Shown here piece by piece: positions 52,635-60,167 of a stretch of DNA of 64,000 nt (the first letter of the stretch is position 1; each line of letters starts with the position of its first letter). The position numbers were made by a program, and so were the translations under genes. Under the pieces are notes generated by a model, which saw nothing but the letters and a program-made list of their open reading frames with translations, did no database searches and was not told the DNA's origin. The DNA is from Weeksella massiliensis (GTDB taxonomy: Bacteria; Bacteroidota; Bacteroidia; Flavobacteriales; Weeksellaceae), in the NCBI GenBank assembly GCA_000751595.1, contig CCMH01000009.1, positions 124,001 through 188,000 of the forward strand. The letters are read 5' to 3'.

Positions 52635-54110
52635 ATGAATAGTAAAATAAATGTACTGAAGAATAAATTTCTTTGGTTTTTGATGGTGGTTTTTCAAACA
52701 CATTGGTTGTTTGCTCAAGCTCCTTTTTTCGAGCGAGTGTACGATGAAACGCTTGCACAAGCGAGTTATGTGATTGCCGATCCCGAAACAAAAGAAGCAA
52801 TTGTCATCGACCCCAAGAGAGATATTGATACTTATTTAACGATTGCAAAAGAAAATAATCTGAAAATTACCCAGATTACCGAAACCCATATTCATGCCGA
52901 TTTTCTCAGCGGATCGCGAGAGTTGCAAGCAGCTACCAAGGCAAAATTATTGCTCTCGAACGAAGGTGGAAAAGATTGGCAATACGAATTTGCTCATGAA
53001 CCTCTGAAAGATGGCGATGTGATAAAAGTAGGGCGTTACACTTTAGAAGTGATGCATACGCCAGGGCACACACCCGAAAGTTTAACTTTTCTTTTGAAAG
53101 GAGGAAAGTTGCAGCCAATTCGCGCGATTACAGGAGATTTTATTTTTGTAGGAGATGTTGGGCGACCAGATTTGTTAGAGAAAGCAGCCGGACAACAAGG
53201 TACGCAAGAAGAAGGGGCCAAACAATTGTTTGCGTCTATTAAGCGTTTTTCTCAATTGCCCAATAATACAGAAATTTGGCCAGGACATGGTGCAGGCTCT
53301 TTTTGTGGAAAAAGTTTGAGTAACATTCCGCAATCGACTTTGGCCGAAGAAAAACAAACAAATGAAGCCTTGAAGATAAAAGAAGAAGCATCTTTTGTTC
53401 GGTATATTTTAGAAGGTCAACCAGAACCTCCAGCGTATTTTGCAGTGATGAAACAACTGAATAAAATTCAACGTCCATTGCTGATCCAAGTGCCAAAACA
53501 TCCTTTCCTTACCAAAGAAGAAGTTGATCGTGCTCGACAAAATAACGTGTTGATTGTAGATACTCGTAAAAAAGAAAACGTACAAAAAGGATTTATTCCA
53601 GGAAGTGTGCATTTCGAAAACGGAAAAATGTTATCGACTTTCATGGGATCGTTGATCAATTATCAACAGCAGTTGTTGATTGTGGCGAAGGAAGAAGAAC
53701 GCGACGATATTACGAGAAAATTGATGCGTATCGGGATGGATAATATTTATGGTTTTGTGTCGGATGTGCATCAACAAAGCTTACCATTGTTGAGCTCGAA
53801 AATTGTCGATATTGATGGATTTAAAAAATACTTGAATCGCTCAGATGTTCAGTTGATAGACGTGCGAACAGAAGGTGAATACAAAGCTGGACATATCAAA
53901 GGATTACAAAATATTCCGTTGAATACAATCGAGCAGAATTTATCCAAAATAGATAAAAAGAAACCCGTAGTTCTTCATTGTCAGAGCGGTGTTCGTGCAG
54001 CAATGGCGTATTCTATCCTTCGAAAAAATGGTTTCGAGAATATTATTAAATATTCGGGCGGGATCAACGATTGGGTAGAAAAAAAGAACGAATTGGTACA
54101 AGAAAAATAA
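52635..54110 (+). CDS. Metallo-beta-lactamase-rhodanese fusion, probable persulfide dioxygenase with signal peptide
   Basis: 491 aa. An N-terminal segment FLWFLMVVFQTHWLFAQ looks like a cleavable signal peptide, unusual for this family. The MBL domain (31-270) has ETHIHADFLSG (His85, His87), HTPGH (His141), GDVGRPD (Asp174) and WPGHG (His218), as in ETHE1-type non-haem iron dioxygenases that oxidise persulfide to sulfite. Two rhodanese domains follow: the first (about 292-380) lacks the catalytic Cys, the second (about 390-485) has Cys449 in HCQSGVRA. Sulfite made here could be removed by the TauE/SafE exporter encoded next. Confidence 0.88.
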   Translation: MNSKINVLKNKFLWFLMVVFQTHWLFAQAPFFERVYDETLAQASYVIADPETKEAIVIDPKRDIDTYLTIAKENNLKITQITETHIHADFLSGSRELQAATKAKLLLSNEGGKDWQYEFAHEPLKDGDVIKVGRYTLEVMHTPGHTPESLTFLLKGGKLQPIRAITGDFIFVGDVGRPDLLEKAAGQQGTQEEGAKQLFASIKRFSQLPNNTEIWPGHGAGSFCGKSLSNIPQSTLAEEKQTNEALKIKEEASFVRYILEGQPEPPAYFAVMKQLNKIQRPLLIQVPKHPFLTKEEVDRARQNNVLIVDTRKKENVQKGFIPGSVHFENGKMLSTFMGSLINYQQQLLIVAKEEERDDITRKLMRIGMDNIYGFVSDVHQQSLPLLSSKIVDIDGFKKYLNRSDVQLIDVRTEGEYKAGHIKGLQNIPLNTIEQNLSKIDKKKPVVLHCQSGVRAAMAYSILRKNGFENIIKYSGGINDWVEKKNELVQEK

Positions 54111-54173
54111 TTTTTCATCAAGCGTTTTGATTGATTATTCAAACGCTAAATTGATTCAATTTATACTTTACAA

Positions 54174-54214
54174 AAAAGGATTTTCGGGTTGAATAGTAAC
54201 CTGAAAATCCTTTT
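54174..54214 (+). terminator. Strong intrinsic terminator of the MBL-rhodanese gene
   Basis: AAAAGGATTTTCGGGTT pairs with AACCTGAAAATCCTTTT (17 bp, one wobble), loop GAATAGT, then T run. Confidence 0.9.
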
Positions 54215-54256
54215 GTTTTTTTAGCGAGATTTCTGCTTTCTCATACCTTTTGTTCT

Positions 54257-54300
54257 GTAACAATTGTTACTGCCTAAAATGACGTTTAGGGCTAATTTTG
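54257..54300 (+). promoter_or_regulatory. Operator GTAAC-AATT-GTTAC with -7 box TAATTTTG 36 nt on (site B)
   Basis: Perfect palindrome (54257-54270), -7 box at 54293-54300. Same offset as sites A and D. Leader to the ATG at 54324 is about 18 nt. Confidence 0.78.
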
Positions 54301-54323
54301 TAGTAATAAAAAAAGCATACAAG

Positions 54324-55130
54324 ATGATAGGAGTAGAAATAATAGGATATATATTAGCTGTTTTAGTAGGAATTTCTCTGGGCCTAATCGGGAGTGGAGG
54401 TTCAATTTTAACGGTACCTATTTTGGTCTACGTTATGGGAGTAAATCCAGTTTTGGCAACAGCCTATTCACTTTTTGTAGTCGGGACAACCTCTTTGGTG
54501 GGGGGAGTGCAAAATGCAATGCAAAAGAAAGTGGATTTCAAAACGGTTTTTATTTTCGGGATTCCTTCCATTGCTGCTGTTTATCTCACCCGCGCTTATC
54601 TTATTCCATACTTGCCCGATGTTCTTTTTCGGATAGGCGATTTTGAGTTTACCAAGTCGATTGGTTTAATGGTTTTGTTTGCTGTTGTGATGATTTTGGC
54701 GTCTATTTCGATGATTCGTCCTTGTCCGCATTGTCAGGATACAAGCGATGGCGAAATAAAATACAATTATCCGATGATTTTGTTAGAAGGTGCCTTGGTC
54801 GGAACCTTAACCGGTTTGGTCGGTGCAGGTGGTGGCTTTTTAATTATTCCGGCTTTGGTTTTGTTGGCGAGAATGCCAATGAAATTAGCTGTCGGTACCT
54901 CGTTATTCATCATCGCAATCAAATCTTTGTTAGGATTTTTAGGAGATATGAACAACGGCGAAGTAATCGATTGGCAACTCCTATCCATCTTTACAGCCTT
55001 ATCGGTTGTAGGAATTTTTATTGGAATTTTCTTATCGAAAAAAATTGCTGGAGATAAACTAAAAACGGCCTTTGGATGGTTCGTTCTCGTGATGGGAGTT
55101 TACATTTTAGTTAAAGAGTTATTTTTATAA
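54324..55130 (+). CDS. TauE/SafE-family sulfite/sulfur exporter
   Basis: 268 aa from ATG 54324 (MIGVEIIGYILAVLVGISLGLIGSGGSILTVPILVY); an upstream TTG frame overlaps operator B and is rejected. Eight or so transmembrane helices in two repeats, each with the GLIGSGGSxL / GLVGAGGGFLIIPALV signature. A cytoplasmic or periplasmic loop carries a Cys pair (RPCPHCQD). The family exports sulfite, sulfoacetate or thiosulfate; the neighbours favour sulfite/thiosulfate. Followed in order by rhodanese, two small membrane proteins and thioredoxin. Confidence 0.9.
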   Translation: MIGVEIIGYILAVLVGISLGLIGSGGSILTVPILVYVMGVNPVLATAYSLFVVGTTSLVGGVQNAMQKKVDFKTVFIFGIPSIAAVYLTRAYLIPYLPDVLFRIGDFEFTKSIGLMVLFAVVMILASISMIRPCPHCQDTSDGEIKYNYPMILLEGALVGTLTGLVGAGGGFLIIPALVLLARMPMKLAVGTSLFIIAIKSLLGFLGDMNNGEVIDWQLLSIFTALSVVGIFIGIFLSKKIAGDKLKTAFGWFVLVMGVYILVKELFL

Positions 55131-55150
55131 TCATACCAAAAAAAGAAAAT

Positions 55151-55480
55151 ATGTTTGGTTGGATGAACCGCTTATTGGGTAAAAAAAATAGAGAATTAGA
55201 AAACGCTTTGATGGCAAATCCGTATTTGGTCGATGTACGATCGGAAGCTGAGTTTGCCAACGGAAGTGTAGAAGGTGCCGTGAATATTTCGCTCGATAAA
55301 TTAACGACACAACTCAAAACCTTGCGTCAGCATTCGTGTATTGTTGTGTTTTGTAGAAGTGGTTTCCGAAGTGGAATGGCCAAAAAAGTTCTTCAACAAA
55401 AAGGGATTTCGGCTGTTATCAACGGAGGAAGATGGGAAAACGTTCAGCGCACAAAGCAATCCTTAAACCTAAAATCATAA
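55151..55480 (+). CDS. Single-domain rhodanese
   Basis: 109 aa. LVDVRSEAEFANGSVEGAVNISLDKL and the active-site loop VVFCRSGFRSGMA (Cys68) followed by NGGRWENV. It carries sulfane sulfur as a Cys-persulfide. There is no signal peptide, so it is cytoplasmic. 20 nt after the exporter gene, 3 nt before the next gene. Confidence 0.92.
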   Translation: MFGWMNRLLGKKNRELENALMANPYLVDVRSEAEFANGSVEGAVNISLDKLTTQLKTLRQHSCIVVFCRSGFRSGMAKKVLQQKGISAVINGGRWENVQRTKQSLNLKS

Positions 55481-55483
55481 ACC

Positions 55484-55738
55484 ATGAGAACACAAATTTT
55501 CGGTTGGAATTTTATGAGAATCCTACGCTTAGTATTAGGAATGCTCATCATTCTACAAGCCATTTTTGCACAAACGTGGATTTTTATCTTTTTCGGATTG
55601 TTTCTCGTTTATACGGCTGTGAAAAACATTGGATGTTGCGGAATGAATGCGTGTGGTTTACCCGAAACCAAAAATAAAACCAATCTAGAAAAGGTGGTTT
55701 TTGAAGAAATAAAACTAAAAAATCATGATGAAAAATAA
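55484..55738 (+). CDS. YgaP/DUF2892-like small membrane protein with Cys cluster
   Basis: 84 aa. Two hydrophobic helices (MRILRLVLGMLIILQAIF and WIFIFFGLFLVYTAVKNI) followed by GCCGMNACG, a compact Cys motif, and a charged tail. The two-helix part resembles the YgaP-type transmembrane domain often fused to rhodanese; here it is a separate gene right after one. Its end overlaps the next gene by 14 nt. Confidence 0.78.
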   Translation: MRTQIFGWNFMRILRLVLGMLIILQAIFAQTWIFIFFGLFLVYTAVKNIGCCGMNACGLPETKNKTNLEKVVFEEIKLKNHDEK

Positions 55739-55931
55739 AAAAATGCTCCTTTTCGGAGTTGCTTTCGGAGCGTTGGTAGGATTTCTTTATTGGAATTTTA
55801 TTGGCTGTACAACCGGAACTTGCGCAATCACTTCCAGTCCGATTAATAGTACAATTTACGGATCGTTGATGGGCGGATTATTATTTTCATCGTGGAAGAA
55901 AAATAACAACAATAAAAAAGAAGAATTATGA
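55725..55931 (+). CDS. DUF6132-type small membrane protein
   Basis: 68 aa. Two helices around [32 protein letters not shown]; the GCxxGTCxITSxP motif is the mark of DUF6132. It recurs in Bacteroidota sulfur and thioredoxin clusters; function unknown. A Lys/Asn tail ends it. Overlaps the thioredoxin gene by 4 nt. A start one codon later (55728) is equally possible. Confidence 0.82.
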
Positions 55932-56221
55932 CATTTCAAGAAATTATCAATCAAGACAAGCCGGTCCTTGTCGATTTTTTTGCCGAGTGGTGTGGTCCTT
56001 GTAAAATGCAAGCGCCAATTTTAGATGAGCTGAAAGAACGCGTTGGTGATGCCGCGAGTATCGTGAAAATCGACGTAGATCAGAATCGTCCTTTGGCAAC
56101 AGAATATCAGATTCGCAGTGTGCCGACCTTGGCAATTTTCAAACAAGGAAAAGTTATGTGGCGACAATCAGGCGTTTTTCCGGCTGATGATTTAGAACGA
56201 TTAATCAACGAAAATCTATAA
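55928..56221 (+). CDS. trxA: Thioredoxin
   Basis: 97 aa. [20 protein letters not shown] (Cys22, Cys25) and the cis-Pro loop SVPTLAIFK. No signal peptide, so a cytoplasmic reductant, here probably for the persulfide on the neighbouring rhodanese. Last gene of the tauE operon. Confidence 0.92.
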
Positions 56222-56227
56222 ACCCCA

Positions 56228-56261
56228 AAAAGCTCGAATCGTATTTTTGATTCGAGCTTTT
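56228..56261. terminator. Intrinsic terminator between trxA and doxX
   Basis: AAAAGCTCGAATC and GATTCGAGCTTTT, 13-bp perfect stem, 8-nt loop, T run; bidirectional. Confidence 0.9.
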
Positions 56262-56288
56262 ATTTTTTAATCTTTATTTATTGGTTGG

Positions 56289-56314
56289 ATAGGATGAATT
56301 TTATCCTACCGAAA
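56289..56314. repeat. Inverted pair of the recurrent word
   Basis: TAGGATGAATTTTATCCTACCGAAAT-type arrangement: the word and its inverted core form a 6-bp stem. It lies just past the doxX stop. Confidence 0.65.
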
Positions 56315-56316
56315 TA

Positions 56317-56724
56317 TTATCGATGATAGAGATTGTACGCTTTTGGATTGTTGAGAATAAAAAATAATAATCCTCCGAAAATTGCAATATTTTTCCATAA
56401 CGGACCATGAAGAAATCCGTTTCCGAATTGGATGGTAATCGTGATCGGAATAAGCAACACAAAAAGTGCAGTTGCCGAAAAACGAGTGAAAACACCCAAC
56501 AGAAAAGTTACGCCAAAAAGAATAAGAGCATAACCCGAAAGAATACCTAATAAATGTGGATCGCCAAAAAACTCAGCAAAACCACTGTTGCTTGCGTTAT
56601 TTATACGTTTGGTTACACCGTCGGGATTCACGAGGTGAGAAATGCCGGCGACAATAAAAATGCCGCTGACTGCTGCGCGCAAAAGAAAGATTGACAAGTC
56701 TGAGATTTGATTCTGTTTTTCCAT
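56317..56724 (-). CDS. DoxX-family membrane protein
   Basis: 135 aa, four helices, with LLRAAVSGIFIVAGISHLVNPDGVTKRI at the start and PLWKNIAIFGGLLFFIL at the end. DoxX proteins take part in thiosulfate:quinone oxidation in Acidianus and in thiol/oxidative stress complexes elsewhere. Here the promoter carries the same GTAAC-N4-GTTAC site as the sulfur genes, which ties it to them despite being on the other strand. Confidence 0.88.
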   Translation of the reverse strand: MEKQNQISDLSIFLLRAAVSGIFIVAGISHLVNPDGVTKRINNASNSGFAEFFGDPHLLGILSGYALILFGVTFLLGVFTRFSATALFVLLIPITITIQFGNGFLHGPLWKNIAIFGGLLFFILNNPKAYNLYHR

Positions 56725-56782
56725 TTATGTATTAATTATTAATATTTTTTACGTGTGTTTCAATATGAAAAGTAATAATAAA

Positions 56783-56826
56783 TAAAAATATAGGAATGTT
56801 TTTGAGCTTATTGTAACTATTGTTAC
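56783..56826 (-). promoter_or_regulatory. Operator GTAAC-AATA-GTTAC with -7-like box TATTTTTA 36 nt on (site C)
   Basis: Perfect palindrome at 56813-56826 with extra TT/AA flank pairs. Read on the minus strand, the box at 56783-56790 is one base off TAnnTTTG and lies at the same 36-nt offset as the three plus-strand sites. It points to doxX. Confidence 0.7.
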
Positions 56827-56890
56827 AATTATTTTATTTAATTAAAAGATAAGTAGGATAATATTATTTTTATTATTAAATAATAAATTA

Positions 56891-56898
56891 TACATTTG
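56891..56898 (+). promoter_or_regulatory. -7 box TACATTTG for the accessory island
   Basis: TAnnTTTG match with a leader of about 50 nt before the ATG at 56955. Confidence 0.5.
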
Positions 56899-56954
56899 TA
56901 AATGAATGATTTTCAGTTAATAATTGGAAGTCATTTAACCAACCAACAACCTAA

Positions 56955-57581
56955 ATGAAAAAGTTAACATCTACACAATCTAGTATTGTGCCTGGTATAT
57001 CTTATATACTGGGCTTGTTACTTTTCTTATTATTTTCTACAGATTTACGCGCTCAGATTTATATTAATGATCAATCATCCCTGTATATTGGAGAAAATAC
57101 TCTTTTTTCTGCTGATGGGGAAGAAATAAATTCAAAAGATGTTGTTGTAGTTCAGGAAAAAAGACCAAAGCTCTATATCGTAGATGGGACAAAAGTTTCT
57201 GGTTTAGAAGTTCTTGATGATGTTGAGATTGTTGTTGTGGCTAAAAAGGATGTAGATTTGCCACATGTAGAAACTACCGGTATAAACATTTCTCAAGAGA
57301 GCGAACAGGAGAAAGTAGACACAATTAATGAGAGATACGAAACTAATTTAAGCTCTGATTATTTTAAAACTCTTCCTAATAAAAGAAGTATTTCTCAATC
57401 ATTTACATTAAAATATATTGTAAATGAAACACATAGTTTTTTCGATGCTCTTATATTTTCAAATAATGAGGATCGTTTTTTATTATTATGTTTCGTTCTT
57501 GTTTGTTTTTCTTTTTTAGGAATATTTTATAAATATTTTTTATTACTCTTCTTTTTTGCTAGACCACCCCCGTTGTATTAA
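56955..57581 (+). CDS. Exported protein with C-terminal membrane helix and RPPP tail, unknown function
   Basis: 208 aa, no family recognised with confidence. Signal peptide ending LRAQ; then a short beta-type domain (IYINDQSSLYIGENTLFSADGEEI) that resembles a one-turn repeat, a variable Glu/Asp-rich middle (about 75-150), and a strongly hydrophobic C-terminal segment (FLLLCFVLVCFSFLGIFYKYFLLLFFFA) ending RPPPLY. The long hydrophobic end could be one helix followed by a hairpin into the membrane. It leads an AT-rich group of four exported proteins. Confidence 0.75.
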   Translation: MKKLTSTQSSIVPGISYILGLLLFLLFSTDLRAQIYINDQSSLYIGENTLFSADGEEINSKDVVVVQEKRPKLYIVDGTKVSGLEVLDDVEIVVVAKKDVDLPHVETTGINISQESEQEKVDTINERYETNLSSDYFKTLPNKRSISQSFTLKYIVNETHSFFDALIFSNNEDRFLLLCFVLVCFSFLGIFYKYFLLLFFFARPPPLY

Positions 57582-57601
57582 TATTATTTCTATAAAAAGT
57601 T

Positions 57602-57627
57602 TTTTAGACAAGTAATTTCGTCTAAAA
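57602..57627 (+). promoter_or_regulatory. Hairpin between the lead gene and the first jelly-roll gene
   Basis: TTTTAGAC pairs with GTCTAAAA around a 10-nt loop. No clear T-run follows, so an RNA-processing or partial-termination element is more likely than a full terminator. Confidence 0.4.
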
Positions 57628-57657
57628 GCATATTTATTATTTTAAATTATTTATACA

Positions 57658-58440
57658 ATGAAACAACTTATATCTATATTATTAATAACTTTTACAAATT
57701 GCGTATTTGCGCAGGTTGGTATTAATACTGATCATCCACATGAGAATTCATCTTTACATGTGGTAACTCCAACAAATAAATCTATACTCTTGCCTTCAGT
57801 AGATGGTATACAGAATGCCGTAAATCCAGTAAATGATTTGGATTTCCAGGGGGCAATTATTTATGATAAAAAGACCAATACAATTTATGAGCATGATGGT
57901 CAAAGGTGGAATAGTGTATACAATTTCGAGGTTGATCTTAAAAAAGAATACTTAGCTCATTTTACTCGTAAATATAAAGATGTAAACTGTACTGGATCAA
58001 ATTGTGTTGGAGAAGCATTACTACCCTGGACTAACAATGGAACATTTGATTTTATTGGTGATAATATTAATGTATCGCTGAAGGATGAGAACACTATCAA
58101 AATACATGAAAAAGGTTTATATCGAATTTCTTATCGAACATATGCAAGAAGATCAGGTAAAAATACTACTGACATATTCACTTTTTTAGAAAGATCAACT
58201 GAAGGAACAGAGTGGTATATAATTCAGGAGTCCTCTTATGGGAAGAATGAAGATAATGATGGATTCAAGCCTGTTTTACAAGGAGTAATTGTTATGCAAT
58301 TAGGGGCAAATGACTTATTGAGAGTTCGTGCAACAATGAAGGCAGGAATTACAGGGTTATGGCAAACTTCGAATGCACTATTTGAAGATAGACAAACCTA
58401 TGGTATAGGCGAGTTTATGATAGAAAAAATCAACCTTTAA
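57658..58440 (+). CDS. Secreted jelly-roll (C1q/TNF-like) protein, paralogue 1
   Basis: 260 aa. Signal peptide (LLITFTNCVFAQ) followed by VGINTDHPHENSSLHV, a flavobacterial opening seen before C1q-like domains. A conserved linker (SILLPSV... GAIIYDKKTNTIYEHDGQRWNSV) and a C-terminal domain of about 150 residues starting at a Cys pair (CTGSNC), with strand pattern NTIKIHEKGLYRISYRTYARRSG and DLLRVRATM. Best read as a TNF/C1q-like jelly roll; assignment by pattern. No T9SS C-terminal signal is evident. Confidence 0.65.
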   Translation: MKQLISILLITFTNCVFAQVGINTDHPHENSSLHVVTPTNKSILLPSVDGIQNAVNPVNDLDFQGAIIYDKKTNTIYEHDGQRWNSVYNFEVDLKKEYLAHFTRKYKDVNCTGSNCVGEALLPWTNNGTFDFIGDNINVSLKDENTIKIHEKGLYRISYRTYARRSGKNTTDIFTFLERSTEGTEWYIIQESSYGKNEDNDGFKPVLQGVIVMQLGANDLLRVRATMKAGITGLWQTSNALFEDRQTYGIGEFMIEKINL

Positions 58441-58449
58441 ATTTAAATT

Positions 58450-59286
58450 ATGAAAAATATTTTAATAGTTATTTTAATACATATAAATGGCTTAATTGTT
58501 TTTGGACAAGGAACAATTAATTTAGATAACACAACGGCAAATCCACATAAAAATGCTATTTTAGATATTAAAGCTGACTCAAAAGGAGTTATATTCCCAA
58601 AAGTTGCAGATATTACTAAATTCCCTTTTTATAATAAGAATGCAGAAGACTTATTTGATGATAAAGCAGAAGCTTCTGGGTCTATAATATTTAACCAAGA
58701 GGATAAACAGTATTATAAATACAATGGAAAAACATGGGTTACTGCAAAACAATTAGCGGGCTTTGATAATCCTCATTTATCAAGAATAAAAAATAATGGT
58801 ACAGTAAGTTTTAGATGTGTTTTGGGTATAGGAAGTTGTGCTCCACAATTAATTCCCTTAACAAATACTGTTAATATATCTCAGTTATTGGTTAATAATC
58901 TTGCTGTACCGACAGTAAATAATATTATAACTATAAAAGAAGACGGAATATATAATGTAGCAGGAGTAATTGGTTTCGAGGGGACTAGTGTTTTATCGCT
59001 TGGTCAAGATATTATTTATAGGGCTTATATAGAGGTTCAGTACCCAGGTTCTGATGAATGGATGACATTGGCTTTTAAGGAAACTGCACAGTTCGGTGGA
59101 TTGTTTGTTGATTTTGGTCAATCTGGAAATAAAAGCGCAAGTGTAACTACAACAGCAAATCTTGTTGCAAATACTAAAATTAGAATGGGAACCCTAGCTA
59201 AAGTTAAAGGTGTTAGCTTTGTAAGTACTTATACAACTGTTGGTTCTCATACAGAAACATTTATAAATATTACTAAAATTAAATAA
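58450..59286 (+). CDS. Secreted jelly-roll (C1q/TNF-like) protein, paralogue 2
   Basis: 278 aa. Same layout as its neighbours: signal peptide (GLIVFGQ), GTINLDNTTANPHKNAILDIKADSKGVIFPKV, the linker GSIIFNQEDKQYYKYNGKTWVTA, then the Cys pair (CVLGIGSC) and the jelly-roll-like segment TVNNIITIKEDGIYNVAGVIGFEGTSVLSLG with NLVANTKIRMGTLAKVKG. 9 nt after paralogue 1 and 7 nt before paralogue 3. Confidence 0.65.
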   Translation: MKNILIVILIHINGLIVFGQGTINLDNTTANPHKNAILDIKADSKGVIFPKVADITKFPFYNKNAEDLFDDKAEASGSIIFNQEDKQYYKYNGKTWVTAKQLAGFDNPHLSRIKNNGTVSFRCVLGIGSCAPQLIPLTNTVNISQLLVNNLAVPTVNNIITIKEDGIYNVAGVIGFEGTSVLSLGQDIIYRAYIEVQYPGSDEWMTLAFKETAQFGGLFVDFGQSGNKSASVTTTANLVANTKIRMGTLAKVKGVSFVSTYTTVGSHTETFINITKIK

Positions 59287-59293
59287 TTGCGAA

Positions 59294-60043
59294 ATGAAAA
59301 ATATTTTATTAATGATATTGTTATTTTGCACAAATAACATATTTGCTCAAGTTGTAATCGGAAAAGACACTCCAAAAACTAATAATTCTGAATTAGAGTT
59401 AATCAGTACTGATGGTCAAAAGGCATTAATCTTACCAAAAACTAATGACCGTACTACTTTACCTAAATATAAAGTAACAGAGGTGGATTCTTATACAGAT
59501 GATCCTTCAATGGAAGGAATGTTATTATATAACAAAGCAGAGAAAAAGGTAAAAGTTTATGATGGTAAAAAATGGGAAAATGCTTTTGATGATAGTCCTA
59601 AAGTACACACTATTACAAGGATGAAAATGGTACCTGAGACTATAGTTTGCGCTTTGGGAATTTGTGGTTCAAATGAAATAAAATTTTCATCAGGCGGAGA
59701 AAATTTCTCTGATCATTTAAATATCCAAACAGCTAGTGATACATTTACTATTAAGCAAAAAGGAGTTTATCGTATAAATGTAAATATAGGATTTTCAGGT
59801 TTTTCACTTTTAGGACAAAATATAAAAATAGCTATAAGTGTTAATGGAAATGCAAGGACATACATGTCAAAAAGTCCAAAACTTTTTAGTAGCGATACAT
59901 ATGTTGCAGGAGACGAGGTTGTACTCTACCTAAATACAGGAGATCAAGTGAAGATAAAAATGACTTTAGGTACCTCTATAGCGGCAGGCTTTAAATATGG
60001 AGAAAACGATTATAGTAATATTACATTCGAAAGATTATTATAA
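59294..60043 (+). CDS. Secreted jelly-roll (C1q/TNF-like) protein, paralogue 3
   Basis: 249 aa. Signal peptide (LLFCTNNIFAQ), NSELELISTDGQKALILPKTNDRTTLP, linker GMLLYNKAEKKVKVYDGKKWENA, Cys pair (CALGIC) and the domain ASDTFTIKQKGVYRINVNIGFSGFSLLGQNIKIAISVNG ... LNTGDQVKIKMTLGTS. The G-V-Y-R-I-N and N-T-G-D-Q-V-K-I strands fit the C1q family best of the three. A strong terminator follows. Confidence 0.68.
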   Translation: MKNILLMILLFCTNNIFAQVVIGKDTPKTNNSELELISTDGQKALILPKTNDRTTLPKYKVTEVDSYTDDPSMEGMLLYNKAEKKVKVYDGKKWENAFDDSPKVHTITRMKMVPETIVCALGICGSNEIKFSSGGENFSDHLNIQTASDTFTIKQKGVYRINVNIGFSGFSLLGQNIKIAISVNGNARTYMSKSPKLFSSDTYVAGDEVVLYLNTGDQVKIKMTLGTSIAAGFKYGENDYSNITFERLL

Positions 60044-60056
60044 TTCACTTTAGTAT

Positions 60057-60098
60057 AAAAATAGAATAACCTTTCGATACGAAAGGTTATTCTATTTT
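60057..60098 (+). terminator. Strong terminator of the accessory island
   Basis: AAAATAGAATAACCTTTC pairs with GAAAGGTTATTCTATTTT (18 bp perfect), loop GATAC. Confidence 0.92.
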
Positions 60099-60167
60099 AC
60101 CAAACTATAATTTGTTATTTTCATTTAAAAAGGCTATCATTAATATTAAAATATAAATAAACAGAGA

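Follow-up and report, generated by a model that had tools for sequence, protein, structure and literature searches.

A predicted exported arrest-peptide leader with a conserved R-x-P-P tail at the head of a jelly-roll gene triplet in Weeksella massiliensis

In the established RAPP arrest the residues RAP in the P site together with proline in the A site block peptide-bond formation, an effect that depends on the arginine, the proline at the third position, and the second residue's backbone (PMC10951233). The tetrapeptide RPPP is the strongest staller among the XPPP motifs in the context of NlpD and belongs to the strong group in CadC (PMC4176338). The leaders with an R-x-P-P tail described in the literature consulted mostly serve the protein-export machinery or metal-related genes (PMC10987492, PMC12992588). 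In addition, the exported leaders CruR and CutF carry such tails and control downstream envelope genes, either by Rho-dependent termination or by a stem–loop over the start codon (PMC9426467, PMC9973294). Here we describe a locus of Weeksella massiliensis in a stretch of 64,000 nucleotides (contig CCMH01000009.1, positions 124,001 to 188,000), in the following called the window, from a host genome of 2.56 Mb. The first-pass annotation of this DNA had described four exported open reading frames (ORFs) on one strand, and these are present on the plus strand at 56955–57581 (the lead gene), 57658–58440 (P2), 58450–59286 (P3), and 59294–60043 (P4). We consider it probable that the product of the lead gene is an exported regulatory arrest peptide which controls the downstream exported jelly-roll genes P2–P4. 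The features of the lead gene are as follows.

56955–57581, plus strand: lead gene, coding for a predicted exported arrest-peptide leader of 208 amino acids
56955–57053, plus strand: predicted signal peptide of the lead, residues 1–33, with a hydrophobic core and located before the conserved Q34
57168–57239, plus strand: conserved mature segment KLYIVDGTKVSGLEVLDDVEIVVV, residues 72–95 of the lead, with two predicted short strands
57561–57572, plus strand: R203-P-P-P206, predicted arrest motif (AGA CCA CCC CCG)

Conservation of the C-terminal tail

The lead protein has no match of note in Pfam or NCBIfam. An initial search with the protein in 197 genomes of the same bacterial family gave matches in 16 of them, and by reading the loci of these matches a common tail R-(P/A/G)-P-P was found a few residues before the stop codon. 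In a 15-row alignment of divergent homologues R203, P205, and P206 are the sole invariant columns. The idea of an arrest peptide was formed at this stage, before the motif-blind search and the count of background ORFs that tested it. The motif-blind profile was built from only the first ∼102 residues to avoid circularity and yielded matches in 226 of 320 genomes of the family at E ≤ 0.01, with up to eight per genome, the weaker of which are unverified. From the strongest matches of this list 60 new members were read. All except one carry [RK]xP[PT] near the stop codon: R[PAG]PP within 30 residues of the stop was found in 51, RPPT in six, and RSPP and KPPP in one each, and the remaining member is cut short by a premature stop, beyond which RPPP follows in frame. 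In the other ORFs of the lead loci R[PAG]PP does not occur (0 of 417). An order-wide search with the full-length profile A1 (E ≤ 0.001, sample of 396 genomes) returned matches almost all of which come from the same family.

Over 74 members the motif reads RPPP in 55 cases, RAPP in eight, RPPT in six (L127, L128, L134, L135, L141, and L151), RGPP in three, and RSPP and KPPP once each. The four motif columns reach 4.2, 3.5, 4.3, and 3.9 bits, whereas the flanking columns from −20 to +5 do not exceed 1.8 bits, with a weak context of [FY]-S-[VI] before and F after the motif. Between motif and stop codon lie 2–24 residues that are conserved neither in number nor in kind. The second motif position is free (P, A, G, or S) and R, P, and P are fixed, which is the pattern required by the RAPP arrest (PMC10951233). 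As the codons of the motif vary among the homologues, the constraint acts on the peptide, and a motif at the level of the DNA or RNA was rejected. By a simple rule, all 74 members have a hydrophobic N-terminus and 54 of them an AQ-type cleavage site. The mature segment has the family consensus KIYIxxGTxVSxL.

The first-pass annotation had taken the lead as a surface protein anchored by a C-terminal membrane segment. The lead could indeed be a structural protein of the surface or the envelope in which the hydrophobic segment and RPPP together act as an anchor or sorting signal, as the window protein is strongly hydrophobic before RPPP and its neighbours are exported. However, this hydrophobic stretch is kept in only 6 of 74 homologues, and in view of its absence in the other 68 the C-terminal anchor was rejected; it is the R-x-P-P motif of arrest type that is conserved instead. 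Moreover, neither the number nor the kind of the residues that follow the motif is constant, and the free second position fits an arrest better than a sorting signal. We therefore regard this explanation as highly improbable.

Some degenerate or isolated copies were also seen. Locus L131 (genome G266) has a lead copy broken by one premature stop, and in genome G049 from the same genus a frame-disrupted remnant ending in RPSP lies before genes of the VGINT type (L187:4850–5610). The genome of the window itself holds no other convincing RPPP leader. At L200:1740–1760 (G000:C11) of this genome an open stretch without ATG ends in ...FVRPPPFLKH... directly 5′ of a TraE-like gene of conjugation type; its surroundings resemble a leader tail, yet there is no evident gene.

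Downstream genes and a possible coupling to them

The lead genes were paired with a following ORF by a lenient rule (at least 140 amino acids, a hydrophobic stretch near the start, distance within 420 nt). In this way 61 of 75 leads are paired with an ORF which passes a rough export test, and the median gap is 97 nt. According to a rough sequence pattern, the 61 pairs comprise 22 with an exported protein of the VGINT type, 27 with a long protein of the WxCxxxxxC type plus a protein of ∼180 amino acids, and 12 others. In the second type of cassette a long protein that ends in a WxCxxxxxC-type pattern precedes a ∼180-residue AIGK...FNGxxWxYWK protein. Such long proteins ending in WxC(F/I)xxxxxC(P/N), regularly followed by a ∼180-residue exported protein ending in FNGxxWxYWK(P), are encoded at L021:4476–5045, L029:10696–11232, and many other places. 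The smaller protein of this conserved pair resembles the N-terminal module of P2–P4 and is devoid of the jelly roll.

Many cassettes are followed or adjoined by a ∼145-residue protein with similarity to helix-turn-helix (HTH) proteins (MNFKDIHIG...LYKWISKYK), often together with a partner of ∼105 amino acids (L020, L022, L024, L034, L095–L097, L099, L105, L111, L130, L140, L152, and L185). It is weakly similar to the HTH domains of resolvases and transposases, and the gene may mark mobility or switching of the cassette loci.

The R-x-P-P tail could also be a binding motif of a stable exported partner of the cassette products, for example, a chaperone or an assembly factor, without any stalling of the ribosome. 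The existence of a conserved mature segment and the location of the leads next to exported genes would suit such a partner. Nevertheless, the pattern of arginine, a free position, and two prolines equals the requirement of the arrest, the downstream products are of several unrelated types, and the predicted structure of the lead is of low confidence with little of the chain predicted to fold (predicted template modelling score, pTM, 0.29). Thus, we deem a stable partner unlikely. At locus L186 a leader of 133 amino acids unrelated in sequence ends in RPPPGI, 91 nt 5′ of an orthologous P2–P4 triplet. In this single case, what the position needs appears to be the tail of the leader and not its body.

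For the arrest peptide we envisage the following scheme, in which we infer the stalling, its signal, its coupling to expression, and the direction in which it acts. The signal peptide would bring the nascent lead chain to the Sec translocon. With R-P-P reached and the last proline in the A site, the peptide bond would fail to form and the ribosome would stall a few codons before the stop, at a time when the N-terminal part of the lead with the KIYIxxGTxVSxL segment should already be exported. A pull on this exported part or binding to it could then shorten or prolong the stall, whose duration would set the expression of P2–P4. As the downstream genes are cargo and not machinery of export, a sensor of the export or envelope state, as in CruR and CutF, appears likelier than a pure monitor of Sec. 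In the window the stalled ribosome might melt a helix that hides the start codon of P2, whereas elsewhere in the lead family the coupling is probably a different one, for example, access of Rho as in CruR. The RNA elements concerned are as follows.

57571–57578, plus strand: 5′ arm of a helix predicted to form with the start region of P2, made up of the codons just after the predicted stall site
57600–57629, plus strand: intergenic hairpin TTTTTTAGAC...GTCTAAAAGC
57653–57660, plus strand: 3′ arm of the predicted helix, covering the AUG of P2 (57658–57660)

When the presumed footprint of the stalled ribosome is blocked, the predicted accessibility of the P2 start in the window increases from 0.29 to 0.60. 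On the basis of this folding model a link between stall and expression via the P2-start helix is tentatively suggested for the window. The RNA tests were exploratory. A first control for a start-occluding structure was positive (p 0.005), and stricter ones then weakened a general coupling by RNA. Among the candidates that were tried, a start-occluding RNA structure common to the whole lead family was rejected on account of dinucleotide shuffles and a comparison of intergenic folding (both below). An excess of C over G, a sign of Rho sites, is found in 54 of 61 lead 3′ ends; it is not seen at synonymous positions and may only reflect the amino-acid content. EF-P and Rho are both present in the genome of the window.

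A number of results speak against a regulatory arrest. Six members end in RPPT and not in RPPP. Regarding the coupling, the start accessibility shifts by more than 0.2 in only two of 56 loci, and a clear start-occluding helix is limited to the window and L096; moreover, dinucleotide shuffles of the post-motif segment gave p 0.06 for the start-occluding structure, and the gaps between lead and gene 1 fold no better than the gaps between gene 1 and gene 2. Regarding the partner genes, no evident exported gene follows the leads of L112, L114, L115, L123, L124, and L149: L114 was paired under the lenient rule, yet the product looks cytoplasmic, the neighbours of L115 and L124 are non-exported, and for L112, L123, and L149 no downstream ORF was obtained. 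The P2–P4 triplet in turn is often leaderless, as five of the seven further triplet loci listed (L187, L188, L189, L191, and L193) have no leader directly before it. Regarding the stall, EF-P, which is encoded in the genome of the window, relieves RPPP stalls in Escherichia coli (PMC4176338), most RAPP-like sequences of E. coli and Bacillus subtilis proteins that were tested in vitro did not stall (PMC10987492), and the isolated CutF tail gave no stall in the assay that was applied.

An alternative would be a weak stall which times the export or folding of the leader itself while the downstream genes are not regulated. The negative outcome of the RNA-coupling tests across the family and the leads without a cassette are in agreement with such a role. 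On the contrary, the leads are in most loci the first gene before an exported cassette, at a median distance like that of known regulatory leaders, and a pause at the very end of the chain would come too late to help most of it. We think that this explanation has little probability and prefer the regulatory arrest peptide.

The jelly-roll triplet and its island

The three genes behind the lead and the flanking features of the locus are listed below.

57658–58440, plus strand: P2, exported protein of 260 amino acids with a C1q/TNF-like C-terminal domain
58450–59286, plus strand: P3, exported jelly-roll protein of 278 amino acids
59294–60043, plus strand: P4, exported protein of 249 amino acids with a Pfam C1q domain
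56891–56898, plus strand: candidate Bacteroidetes-type −7 box TACATTTG 5′ of the lead, by consensus match only
60058–60098, plus strand: hairpin terminator with a perfect 19-bp stem
55739–60165, no strand: stretch of ∼4.4 kb missing at the matching locus of the same-genus genome G049, ends approximate

The common layout of P2–P4 proposed in the first-pass annotation was confirmed, and the jelly roll in their C-terminal domains is supported. P4 scores above the cut-off of the Pfam C1q profile (24.3 versus 23.7 bits), with which neither P2 nor P3 has a match. A model of P3 from 12 sequences has a mean predicted local distance difference test score of 68 and reaches ∼90 in parts of the C-terminal domain; it resembles RANKL, FasL, TNF, and relatives in Foldseek (probability 1.00, E down to 6.6e-8, template modelling score ∼0.6–0.76 normalized by target length). 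P2 in turn aligns with the P4 group at 99.8% in a profile comparison.

The paralogues had been taken as products of repeated duplication. In a tree of the paralogues the P4 group forms one side of a branch (95/98) and the three labels need the minimum of two changes. Thus, P2, P3, and P4 are ancient orthologous groups that travel as a triplet and not recent local copies. The triplet occurs with the same order of genes in at least seven other genomes, so that the expectation of a four-gene set in other genomes holds for these three genes; an RPPP leader, itself unrelated in sequence, stands before it in one of them only (L186). At L185 the HTH-like gene lies directly before the triplet, and at L188:7738–9220, in the same-genus genome G028, the orthologues of P3 and P4 look shortened (200 and 213 amino acids) and are possibly decaying.

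TNF and C1q domains are usually trimeric. Since three different chains are kept together, P2–P4 may form a C1q-like heterotrimer, which we put forward purely as a conjecture that merits testing. A role in adhesion or contact is plausible. A literature search for C1q-like proteins from bacteria of this group yielded nothing useful.

The difference in base composition and codon choice between the four-gene region and its flanks could be verified. The GC content is 0.302 compared to 0.365 for the window, and the GC content at third codon positions is 0.15–0.23 compared to 0.34–0.37 in four neighbouring genes that were checked; within the window, 3.1-kb segments below 0.32 GC are found in this region only. 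The proposed terminator after P4 was found as a perfect inverted repeat. Of the promoter placed at 56891, the TAnnTTTG box is present, but the window as a whole contains this pattern often (49 matches versus 38 expected) and not above chance.

The jelly-roll paralogues thus lie in a compositionally distinct island, as had been proposed, and this island is also absent from the matching locus of G049. The missing stretch holds the 55725 ORF, the genes for a thioredoxin and a DoxX protein, the lead, and P2–P4. G049 retains the order metallo-beta-lactamase–rhodanese, TauE, rhodanese, 55484 ORF, 60168 ORF, outer-membrane protein, and DPP-type peptidase, with a spacer of just ∼70 nt from the 55484 to the 60168 ORF. 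This comparison alone decides neither for gain nor for loss. As the tree places the triplet of the window next to the triplet of a different genus (G178, G195) and apart from those of the genus mates G049 and G028, acquisition of the island is favoured. A plasmid search matched neither the four-gene region nor P4. Upstream, at 52635–56221, genes for a metallo-beta-lactamase/rhodanese fusion, a TauE-type permease, a rhodanese, and a thioredoxin stand in a row and perhaps form a sulfur-handling cluster, of which the last two genes, like DoxX, are absent from G049 along with the island.

Comparison with known leader peptides

In a literature search largely confined to freely accessible articles, we found no paper on a leader family dominated by RPPP before surface proteins in Bacteroidota. 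More tentatively, we put forward as possible rather than probable that the leads make up a class of exported arrest peptides spread over the whole family, with several in each genome and each at the head of a different surface-protein cassette. One bacterium would run several such translation-arrest switches in parallel, by which the synthesis of surface proteins depends on the encounters of the nascent leader during export, and in the window such a switch would control an ancient jelly-roll triplet, perhaps a C1q-like heterotrimer. Should these leaders stall ribosomes, a whole bacterial family would routinely control its surface proteins by programmed arrest, and each genome would have several paralogous switches. 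Many "hypothetical" surface loci would then become testable regulons, and the natural variants RPPP, RAPP, RGPP, and RPPT would be available for studying the tuning of arrest and the action of EF-P.

The jelly-roll proteins share their C-terminal domains with the C1q/TNF superfamily (Pfam C1q, BclA_C). They differ from it by the absence of a collagen-like stalk, by a short N-terminal module (ILP...YDGxxW), and by three different paralogues being kept together.

Among the arrest peptides, ApdA and ApdP and their relatives 5′ of sec or yidC (PMC10987492, PMC10951233) are similar to the lead family, as they are short, exported or membrane-targeted, carry a C-terminal R-x-P-P near the stop codon, are encoded by the first gene of the operon, and have their constraint concentrated in the motif. 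In contrast, the lead family precedes exported genes of surface type, RPPP dominates over RAPP, and the arrest is predicted. The same distinction holds for SecM, MifM, and VemP: in all five systems the downstream gene belongs to the protein-localisation machinery.

The engineered RPPP contexts that stall in an EF-P-dependent manner (PMC4176338) contain the same tetrapeptide with very strong stalling and have no regulatory role, whereas in the lead family RPPP is conserved as the tail of exported leaders. CruR of Bordetella pertussis and CutF of Rhodobacter capsulatus, which are of the DUF2946 type, are likewise exported leaders with a C-terminal proline motif. They regulate the envelope genes that follow them in response to what is sensed by the nascent chain, a role which is predicted here for the lead family. 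On the other hand, the partner genes are different, none of 74 lead-family members matches the DUF2946 profile at E ≤ 0.01, and a conserved CxxC or histidine metal-binding motif is lacking in the consensus of the alignments A1 and A4. Finally, the upstream ORFs with RAPP or RGPP before TonB-receptor, copper, and other genes (PMC12992588) are also short, have the motif near the C-terminus and export signals, and precede genes other than sec. That survey extracted RGPP and RAPP but not RPPP and grouped the ORFs by annotated downstream function, whereas the lead family carries mostly RPPP and stands before largely unannotated surface proteins.

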